Part shown: piece after piece, positions 12,291 through 14,112 of the stretch
Position numbering within the stretch: position 1 is the first letter of the stretch
Layout of the letters: each line of letters begins with the position of its first letter
Assembly (NCBI RefSeq): GCF_000014225.1
Contig: NC_008228.1
Location: 2,108,001 to 2,172,000, forward strand
Source: Paraglaciecola sp. T6c
GTDB lineage: Bacteria; Pseudomonadota; Gammaproteobacteria; Enterobacterales; Alteromonadaceae
Direction of reading: 5' to 3'
DNA length: 64,000 nucleotides
Notes under the pieces: model-generated
Told to the model about the DNA's origin: nothing
Databases searched by the model: none
What the model saw: the letters and a program-made list of their open reading frames with translations, nothing else
Made by a program: the position numbers and the translations under genes

Positions 12291-12515
12291 TTAATCCATA
12301 GGATCTGACAGGGTAAAATCTCGGGGAGCCTGTTGGTCACATTTTTTGCATTCAAGGTCCATGTTCAGATGTTGCTCACGGCCTTGTTTTGTTATCACCC
12401 AAGGCCTGTTTGTCCACGGAGGATCGTGCCGTACATGTTGATGGTGACCACAGCCGAGTTTCGCTACCCAATGGTCTTCGTCATCTTTTACGTAACCAAT
12501 AATAGGCTGCTTCAT
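12291..12515 (-). CDS. DUF3565 family protein
   Basis: A 74-residue protein with the DUF3565 pattern: GYVKDDEDHWVAKLGCGHHQHVRH, then PPWTNRPWV, and a C-terminal CKKC. The Cys/His spacing (C22, H24/H25, H27, H30 and the CxxC near 57-60) suggests a metal-binding, perhaps zinc-ribbon-like, fold. No function is known to me. It is monocistronic, on the opposite strand to its neighbours. Confidence 0.87.
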   Translation of the reverse strand: MKQPIIGYVKDDEDHWVAKLGCGHHQHVRHDPPWTNRPWVITKQGREQHLNMDLECKKCDQQAPRDFTLSDPMD

Positions 12516-12608: not shown

Positions 12609-12686
12609 AACAGTCATTTTTGGTTGTAATGAATAAAAACAATCATTTTTGGTTGTTATTTAACTTAACAATCTAATTTGGTTGTT
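12609..12686 (+). promoter_or_regulatory. Three 20-bp imperfect dyads at exact 29-bp spacing (candidate operator array)
   Basis: Three copies of AACARTC-N6-GGTTGTW occur at 12609-12628, 12638-12657 and 12667-12686, each start 29 bp after the last. Within them CAGTCATTTTTGGTTGT, CAATCATTTTTGGTTGT and CAATCTAATTTGGTTGT are nearly the same, while the 9-bp spacers are unlike. The middle copy is an 8-bp inverted repeat with one mismatch around TTTT. The array ends about 75 bp before the SatD-like gene and directly upstream of a possible -35 box, so it is probably where a regulator, perhaps the HTH protein encoded next, binds. Confidence 0.8.
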
Positions 12687-12690
12687 TTAA

Positions 12691-12720
12691 TTGCATGAAC
12701 CGTCAGATTTATCGTAAACT
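12691..12720 (+). promoter_or_regulatory. Candidate sigma-70 promoter of the SatD-like/DUF3307 operon
   Basis: TTGCAT (12691-12696) and TAAACT (12715-12720) are separated by 18 bp and lie 4 nt after the third repeat and 40 nt before the start codon. The match to consensus is moderate. Its position just downstream of the repeats would suit activation, or repression by a bound array. Confidence 0.4.
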
Positions 12721-12760: not shown

Positions 12761-13393
12761 ATGATCGCTGTTTTAACCGGAGACCTAGTAGACTCGACAG
12801 CCATGCCTGCGAAAGATTACCAGTGTGCGGTCAGTATCATGGATGATTATCTCGCCAAATGCCAAACACGATTTGCTGCAAAAGGCGAAATCTATCGTGG
12901 TGATAGTTTGCAGCTTATTTTCAAGCAGCCACAACATGCTATGCGCGCAGCAATTGAGCTTAAAAGCCTACTCTTTAGTACTGATGCAACTCAACGACCT
13001 TTGGGAATTACGCTGTCTGTAGGCTTGGGGGAGCAGCTTATTGACGGTAACAAACCCAGTGTTTCACAAGGAAGCGCATTTACCTTATCAGGTAGAGGAC
13101 TGGACAGTACACCTAGTGGGCACATTAGCTTACATCATGAGGGGGGCGCATTTTTTGATGCACTTGTGCTAGCAACGCAGTTTTTAGATAACGTGTTGTA
13201 TTCGCACACGCAAAAACAAGCGAGGGTGCTTTTTCATTATTTAAGTATGGATTTTCCCACTCACACCCAGTTAGCCAATGCATTGTCAACCAGTCAACAA
13301 AACGTGACTAAGCATTTAGCGCGTATTAGCGCGGATTTGATTAAAGCCTATGTTGTTTTTTTTGAGGAAAAATTAAGCAAGGAAAGTGACTAA
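12761..13393 (+). CDS. SatD-like protein: cyclase-fold domain plus C-terminal helix-turn-helix
   Basis: A 210-residue cytoplasmic protein resembling the SatD family. The N-terminal part looks like a class III nucleotide-cyclase fold: TGDLVDST at 6-13 resembles the cyclase D-x3-ST element, YRGDSLQLIF at 45-54 resembles the GD hairpin, and ITLSVGLGE at 83-91 fits the following strand. SQGSAFTLSGRGLD at 102-115 is the SatD-type conserved stretch. Residues about 168-190 (TQLANALSTSQQNVTKHLARI) have the shape of a DNA-binding helix-turn-helix. It may be a nucleotide-sensing regulator rather than an enzyme. It overlaps the DUF3307 gene by one base, and operator-like repeats precede it. Confidence 0.8.
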   Translation: MIAVLTGDLVDSTAMPAKDYQCAVSIMDDYLAKCQTRFAAKGEIYRGDSLQLIFKQPQHAMRAAIELKSLLFSTDATQRPLGITLSVGLGEQLIDGNKPSVSQGSAFTLSGRGLDSTPSGHISLHHEGGAFFDALVLATQFLDNVLYSHTQKQARVLFHYLSMDFPTHTQLANALSTSQQNVTKHLARISADLIKAYVVFFEEKLSKESD

Positions 13394-14112
13394 TGGTATT
13401 GTTTTTATTGATGATTGCAGCTCACATACTGGGTGATTTTTATATTCAGAAAGATAGCTGGGTAACCTGTCGAAATAATCATCATTTTGCCTCATGGGGG
13501 CTAGGTAAACATGTACTGTCTCATGTTGTTCTGCTCACTACTGCCATATGGTTGGCCGGCTTCTTAACTGCACAAGGCTGGATAGCCATTGTCGTGATAG
13601 GCTTTTCACATCTGCTTATCGATGTATGGAAGTCTTATCAACCAAACAAACTGAGCTACTTCTTATTAGACCAATTCTTTCATATCGTGATCATCGCTTT
13701 GGCTGCACTAGCGCTTAGTGGTATTGGCTTGGCCGAGATAAAAACACAGCTATATTTGCTCCTAAAAGTGAAATATGTAGCCATAACGTGTGCCTATGTG
13801 ATTGCGTGTCGGCCGGTATCGATAGCCATAACAATCGCTCTGGATAATTACACCGCACAATTAGCGGATAAACAAACGGGTCTTGCATCTGCAGGGCGCT
13901 GGATCGGCTATATAGAAAGGTGCTTAATTATCTCGTTTGTGTTGATTGGCCAATTTGCGGGTGTAGGCTTTTTGCTAGCAGCCAAAACGATTTTTCGATT
14001 TGGCGACTTAACAAAAGAAAAAGACATGAAGCTAACTGAGTACATGATGCTGGGCACCTTATTAAGCTTCTCATGTGCGTTATTACTGGGCTGGTGGGTC
14101 AATAGACTCTGA
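13393..14112 (+). CDS. DUF3307 family integral membrane protein
   Basis: A 239-residue multi-pass membrane protein. The N-terminal pattern (LLMIAAHILGDFYIQKDSW) and the HLLIDVWKS segment near residue 76 are hallmarks of DUF3307. Acidic and histidine residues inside helices (H11, D15, H74, D77) recall a membrane-embedded metal site, an inference from sequence only. The start codon overlaps the SatD-like stop (TAATG), so the two are translationally coupled. Function is unknown; the partnership suggests that the soluble regulator controls or senses the membrane protein. Confidence 0.85.
   Translation: MVLFLLMIAAHILGDFYIQKDSWVTCRNNHHFASWGLGKHVLSHVVLLTTAIWLAGFLTAQGWIAIVVIGFSHLLIDVWKSYQPNKLSYFLLDQFFHIVIIALAALALSGIGLAEIKTQLYLLLKVKYVAITCAYVIACRPVSIAITIALDNYTAQLADKQTGLASAGRWIGYIERCLIISFVLIGQFAGVGFLLAAKTIFRFGDLTKEKDMKLTEYMMLGTLLSFSCALLLGWWVNRL

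Follow-up and report, generated by a model that had tools for sequence, protein, structure and literature searches.

A tandem array of inverted repeats at a fixed 28–29-bp pitch upstream of satD-like genes is a probable cooperative operator of the adjoining SatD-like protein

Organization of the satD-like locus

The window analysed here, a stretch of 64,000 nucleotides of Paraglaciecola sp. T6c, contains three inverted repeats in front of a SatD-like gene that is followed by a gene for a DUF3307 membrane protein. Positions in the window are as follows.

12610..12627, + strand: proposed operator dyad 1, ACAGTC-N6-GGTTGT, lying at −151 to −153 relative to the start codon of 7/7 close orthologues
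12639..12656, + strand: proposed operator dyad 2, ACAATC-N6-GGTTGT, 29 bp from dyad 1
12668..12685, + strand: proposed operator dyad 3, ACAATC-N6-GGTTGT, 29 bp from dyad 2
12691..12720, + strand: candidate core promoter TTGCAT-N18-TAAACT (TTGCAT at 12691-12696, TAAACT at 12715-12720)
12761..13393, + strand: SatD-like gene, 210 aa, proposed autoregulator with a predicted N-terminal class III cyclase/GGDEF-like fold and a C-terminal helix-turn-helix (HTH)
13393..14112, + strand: DUF3307 membrane protein (PF11750, E=1.6e-25), putative second gene of the operon, overlapping the satD-like stop codon by 1 base

The first-pass annotation had described three inverted repeats at an exact 29-bp pitch, separated by unlike spacers. 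Both distances are indeed 29 bp, and the triple at 29/29 is kept in all seven close genus orthologues (L009-L015, T6c included), with the last dyad 93–95 bp upstream of the start codon, while the 11-bp gaps between the dyads differ and diverge among the seven. The exact pattern ACARTC-N6-GGTTGT occurs three times in the whole window, at dyads 1–3, and AACARTC-N6-GGTTGT three times in the 5,187,005-base T6c genome, all at the array; additional exact copies elsewhere in this genome are thereby excluded. At ≤2 mismatches the window holds 13 matches versus 8.8 expected, and the genome 231 versus 364 for the reversed control pattern. Loosely matching dyads are background, and the array stands out by its exactness together with its spacing. 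A divergent DUF3565 gene (12291-12515, − strand) adjoins the array and could share the control region.

Pitch is conserved across relatives and arm letters vary

The satD-like gene is present in 8 of 16 sampled genus genomes, T6c included; the closest named relatives found are those of Paraglaciecola mesophila (95% protein identity) and P. chathamensis (86%). The eighth genus locus (L062), encoding a protein 31% identical, carries another array, of GTGACT type with four dyads at 28 bp. Searches with E limits of 1e-5 for the family and 1e-8 for order and phylum found relatives in 117/295, 49/295 and 21/398 genomes, respectively, the samples overlapping. The set of loci assembled for comparison, free of repeated places, numbers 172.

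An unconstrained dyad scan (pitch 19–45, arm gap 4–8) gave a best pitch of 28 (110 loci) or 29 (44 loci) in 154 of the 172 loci, which are not independent events because related genomes are counted separately; the remaining 18 did not yield either value. The same pitches were obtained in 68 of 860 dinucleotide shuffles and in 7 of 172 coding segments from the same loci. With dyads located by each array's own consensus and the pitch left free, 28 or 29 bp accounted for 258 of the 291 distances between neighbours in 146 arrays, one pair per array having already been picked at that pitch. The array fit used for covariation (see below) imposes a pitch of 28/29 and favours a C-rich arm end, and it is therefore the unconstrained scan, not the fit, that serves as evidence for the pitch. 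In the 151 fitted loci, arrays consist of two (60), three (79), four (9), five (2) or six (1) dyads. The arrays of five and six dyads at L121 and L122 have an exact 29-bp pitch and apparently arose by recent duplication. A pitch of 28 or 29 bp does not correspond to an integral number of helical turns, and successive dimers would accordingly wind round the DNA.

Elsewhere the arms read, by lineage, GCAAYC, GCAAAC, GCAAGC, GTAACC, TTAGCC, ATACGC and others: arm letters vary between lineages and the geometry stays. The expectation that the repeats recur upstream of orthologues thus holds for the pitch (154/172), whereas the AACARTC/GGTTGTW letters are genus-specific within the family. Outside that family, ACAACC arms recur in one archaeon.

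The arrays are tied to satD-like genes

We searched 290 Alteromonadaceae genomes with two double-dyad patterns, the T6c letter type having been searched in the T6c genome only. The GTAA type yielded 32 array loci in 30 genomes and the GCAA type 20 in 19, 52 in total; the reversed control pattern gave none in any of the 290 genomes. Comparison of coordinates by hand placed 48 of the 52 (29 + 19) no more than about 450 bp upstream of a satD-like gene.

Four arrays lie away from such upstream regions. One of GTAACC type (G205; L205:2266-2311) is a second array at a distance of 14 kb from satD; it precedes an ORF with a PAS domain and marks a possible extra target. Another second array (G171; L203:2507-2552) lies at the end of a DUF3307 ORF and before a 245-aa ORF, and a further one (G162; L204:1560-1605) lies 1.7 kb upstream of the array of a satD-like gene, beside a Fic-domain ORF. 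The last (G072; L206:2660-2705) is on a 6.4-kb contig in which no satD-like ORF was found.

The SatD-like protein has a predicted cyclase-like fold and a C-terminal HTH

An AlphaFold2 model of the SatD-like protein, built from seven sequences, reached a pLDDT of 83.3. It bears out the C-terminal HTH read from the sequence at first pass, with predicted helices 151-162, 168-175 and 179-188, the last being the putative recognition helix. The N-domain of the predicted model has the class III nucleotidyl cyclase fold; GGDEF and Cas10-type domains, which have a related fold, score equally high against it. The putative catalytic Asp pair is kept, the transition-state Asn position is mostly V, I or T, and R112 is present in 99 of 151 proteins, roles that we presume from the sequence motif rather than from superposed coordinates. 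Cyclase activity is doubtful from these residues, and the predicted fold suggests a nucleotide sensor.

The family PF16264 takes its name SatD from the sat genes of Streptococcus mutans, sat standing for secretion and acid tolerance. The T6c protein has no Pfam or NCBIfam match at E≤0.01 and none to PF16264 even at E≤5. Among ten satD-like relatives scanned, five scored 18.4–28.3 bits, below the curated PF16264 cut-off of 29 bits, and five gave no match; a PF16264 search of the T6c genome and of 14 control genomes was without match and is uninformative. Since the T6c protein falls below the membership score, we call it SatD-like and not a member of PF16264.

A DUF3307-like ORF follows the satD-like gene in 165 of 172 loci, as judged with a profile grown from the T6c DUF3307 protein, and the two genes are probably co-transcribed. 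The structure model of the DUF3307 protein is poor (pLDDT 63.2). Assignment to an anti-phage defence system described in PADLOC-DB 2.0.0, for which both proteins should match a profile, is not supported: three DUF3307 proteins scanned had no match at E≤0.1, and three satD-like proteins matched solely over or around the HTH.

Operator letters covary with recognition-helix residues

The letters of the half-sites were set against 204 protein columns in those 151 of 180 loci (the 172 plus 8 plasmid loci) that have a clear array. The other 29 had low fit scores or an unusable protein, or were removed individually as ambiguous; for five loci (L074, L078, L080, L081, L177) the half-site register was set by hand. 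Among the 204 columns, base 1 is tracked best by residue 179, base 2 by residue 180, base 4 by residue 181 and base 5 by residue 184, all within the predicted recognition helix. The same four columns came out best when loci were thinned at 70% (83 loci) and 50% (52 loci) identity, and at 60% (59 loci) without the five hand-set loci.

Over all 151 loci, R179 goes with G1 in 110/111 cases and Q179 with A1 in 18/18; among the 83 representatives, N181 goes with A4 (62/62), Q180 with C2 (34/37), K184 with C5 (27/30) and E184 with G5 (5/5). N184 (C, T and G in 6, 6 and 1 cases) and R184 (C, T and A in 8, 4 and 1) are uninformative. Pairing of Arg with G and of Gln with A is familiar recognition chemistry. 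At 60% thinning the helix was not picked by bases −3 to −1, 6, 8 and 9, and base 7 picked residue 183 weakly; base 3 picked residue 180 at 70% thinning only.

Excess information is higher in columns 166–190 than in columns 1–149 (Mann-Whitney p of 0.015, 0.001 and 0.005 at 95, 70 and 50% thinning). Columns outside the helix also covary strongly, namely 84 and 69, as shared ancestry would give, and 191. We counted independent pairs on supported branches of a tree of 129 N-domains, averaging those with and against the code. The averages are 3/0 for R179-G1, 3/0 for Q179-A1, 0.5/0 for Q180-C2, 2.6/0 for N181-A4, 4.1/0 for K184-C5 (with one against in a few single pairings), 2.5/0 for E/L/S184-G5 and 0.9/0 for T184-A5; other independent pairs showed no base difference. 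None of these tests on the 129 N-domains reached 0.05, the pairs being too few. Covariation of HTH residues with operator letters speaks for the earlier proposal that the neighbouring HTH protein controls the array, which would make the gene autoregulated. An operator in the protein's own promoter region, with letters matched to its own recognition helix, is what would be expected of a one-component HTH autoregulator, and the computed arrays show both.

Distant members in archaea and other bacteria

Five further proteins lie beyond the covariation set; the prediction rule was scripted after the Natronosalvus and Fusobacterium DNA had been seen and before that of the other three. For Natronosalvus (residues Q, Q, A, K) it predicted ACNACN, and two ACAACC-N6-GGTTGT dyads were found 29 bp apart. 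For the near-identical proteins of Halorientalis and Haloplanus (K, S, T, E) it predicted TTNGGN, with K179 falling under the default of the rule, and the DNA holds dyads of the TTCG[CG] type, two pairs at 29 bp, base 5 being mixed. The three haloarchaeal satD genes have 29-bp arrays, with letters that mostly fit. Their proteins score above the PF16264 cut-off, with 54.2 bits for Natronosalvus, 112.6 for Halorientalis and 110.9 for Haloplanus. The latter two share with the T6c locus both features, an annotated DUF3307 gene and 29-bp arrays, as members of PF16264; in Natronosalvus the next gene has a DUF3307 tblastn match over 43% and no Pfam match.

In Fusobacterium, whose SatD (53.5 bits against PF16264) adjoins a DUF3307 match, the prediction was GCNACN; a good GCAATC-N6-AGTTGC dyad is preceded at 29 bp by a poor one, and the unconstrained scan ranked other places higher. 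Aerococcus (L214) was a miss, with no array, no adjoining annotated DUF3307 gene and no PF16264 match. A Ruminococcus match (L041) within a 655-aa ORF, presumably a degenerate-GGDEF protein, was excluded.

Promoter context and sign of regulation

The array had been said to end at a candidate −35 box. TTGCAT does begin five bases after dyad 3, and all seven close genus loci keep TTGC-N18-TAMACT 4–5 bases beyond the last dyad while the sequence between has diverged; a consensus promoter scan, on the other side, called no promoter at TTGCAT-N18-TAAACT. The best promoter-like match overlaps a dyad by 12 or more bases in 91 of 151 loci, a count from a weak scan in which array density forces part of the overlap, the weights are taken from general background and the boxes often differ within a lineage. 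In five of six scored ATACGC loci, one dyad lies within a promoter-like arrangement of TTGACA-like box, N17-19 and −10 box. The last dyad at L072 lies at −18 from a script-chosen start codon and covers a GGAGG stretch. At L072, L076 and L094 alike, the last dyad (at −18) reaches up to the script-chosen start codon, and translation might be affected too.

Dyads that overlap promoter-like matches favour repression, and repression of the satD-DUF3307 operon appears likelier to us than activation. In the genus the conserved promoter form follows just downstream of the array, an arrangement that would suit activation equally well. PMC11323703 reports satD as the sole accessory gene of Streptococcus pyogenes in the top essentiality quarter, which by analogy may be a further pointer to a repressor.

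The gene pair on mobile elements

On the E. coli plasmid pEC34A (3,770 b; L199:1792-3481) the satD-like and DUF3307 genes are the main cargo, the annotation otherwise comprising mobA, a Rop-family gene and one small ORF; the array there is weak. Five Klebsiella records of pEC34A length have tblastn matches to both genes, and among E. coli genomes the satD-DUF3307 DNA of pEC34A had no megablast match. The pair was further found on plasmid records of Segatella, Sphingomonas, Vibrio, Salinivibrio, Enterobacter, Pseudomonas and haloarchaea, some of up to 761 kb, and in four viral contigs; tblastn against phage records returned nothing for the satD-like protein of L145, the archaeal SatD of L210 or the T6c DUF3307 protein. 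On the Sphingomonas plasmid (L195:4069-5612), for which a clear array was not fitted, the pair adjoins genes annotated as Pycsar effector and as adenylate/guanylate cyclase.

Proposed mechanism and alternative explanations

Computation shows the array with its conserved spacing and its link to satD-like genes, operator letters that covary with recognition-helix residues, and a predicted fold; dimerisation, cooperativity, co-transcription, repression and nucleotide sensing are inferred. In our reading, to which we assign a probability of roughly 0.87, the array is the cooperative operator of the adjoining SatD-like protein, which is most likely an autorepressor with an N-domain that is probably a nucleotide sensor. 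A SatD-like dimer would place its two recognition helices (179-188) on both arms of each 18-bp dyad, and contact between neighbouring dimers would fix the 28–29-bp pitch; with neighbours touching, the array would fill cooperatively. The protein would control its own promoter and with it the DUF3307 gene behind, most likely as an autorepressor, and the cyclase-fold N-domain would probably sense a nucleotide that loosens or tightens DNA binding.

The same operator and protein might instead serve activation, bound protein aiding RNA polymerase from an array upstream of a weak −35 box. The start of TTGC-N18-TAMACT 4–5 bases after dyad 3 in 7/7 close orthologues, with its poor −35 box and 18-bp spacer, and the silence of the consensus scan at the T6c locus would suit an activator; the promoter-like matches inside the array in other lineages (5/6 ATACGC loci) and the position of the last L072 dyad over GGAGG are places typical of repressors, and we hold activation to be rather improbable. 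Many HTH families bind dyads, so some other regulator might occupy the array with the satD-like gene merely its target, a notion for which nothing direct speaks. It is hard to reconcile with bases 1, 2, 4 and 5 being best tracked, among 204 columns, by recognition-helix residues of the satD-like protein, with 48/52 arrays of the family genome search standing at satD-like genes, and with an array that accompanies the gene pair on haloarchaeal plasmids too; we consider it very improbable. The near-constant length of the tandem unit and the recently duplicated look of L121 and L122 (5 and 6 copies) could bring to mind repeats with no regulatory role, such as iterons, a partition site or a functionless recent tandem duplication. 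We reject such an origin with near certainty, since the spacers have diverged across many species in which arms and pitch are conserved; the operator letters are, moreover, linked to the HTH.

Beyond the autorepressor reading, we tentatively entertain the idea, less probable than not to be right in full, that satD-DUF3307 is a mobile module of bacteria and archaea in which a nucleotide-sensing cooperative repressor silences a membrane effector until a signal such as infection or stress arrives. As part of this still speculative picture, the module would own a private, fast-evolving operator array, and private operators would let modules coexist without cross-talk. The leads are the cargo of pEC34A, the Pycsar neighbour, the patchy occurrence (117/295 family genomes) and essentiality in S. 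pyogenes, which, in so far as the excerpts of PMC11323703 describe it, would be expected of the repressor of a harmful partner.

Comparison with known systems

The first-pass annotation knew of no published array before SatD-like/DUF3307 genes, and our searches of the open-licence literature returned no account of such an array or of a DNA-binding SatD, with satD/satE results swamped by satellite-DNA papers. The literature searched assigns no molecular mechanism to either SatD or DUF3307; a mention of DUF3307 occurs in PMC8504454. Taken together, the array, the code and the cyclase-like fold turn SatD into a regulator open to direct test, whose operator would be largely predictable from four residues. 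With letters that drift and a geometry that is fixed from proteobacteria to haloarchaea, the family offers a clean natural data set for protein–DNA recognition.

The T6c protein shares length and layout with the SatD family PF16264. SatD is presented as an acid-tolerance gene in the excerpts of PMC10326533 and as an 'essential accessory gene' of S. pyogenes in those of PMC11323703; in neither set of excerpts is it presented as a DNA-binding autoregulator, unlike our proposal for T6c. From class III nucleotidyl cyclases and GGDEF proteins the SatD-like protein differs by changes at the presumed Asn and Arg positions and by the fusion of the domain to an HTH. KorA and ArdK are plasmid-borne HTH repressors that act on repeats, like the proposed SatD-like regulator (excerpts of PMC9723621). 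One satD-like protein gave a very weak match to PF16509 (E 0.032), and no significant sequence link to KorA/ArdK was seen. To our knowledge, KorA and ArdK are without a cyclase-fold domain. In the local recognition code of the LacI family, recognition-helix residues set nearby operator letters, as they appear to do here (start of the abstract of PMC2978694). The LacI family has an unrelated protein architecture, whereas the SatD-like system is distinguished by two to six tandem dyads at a fixed 28–29-bp pitch.
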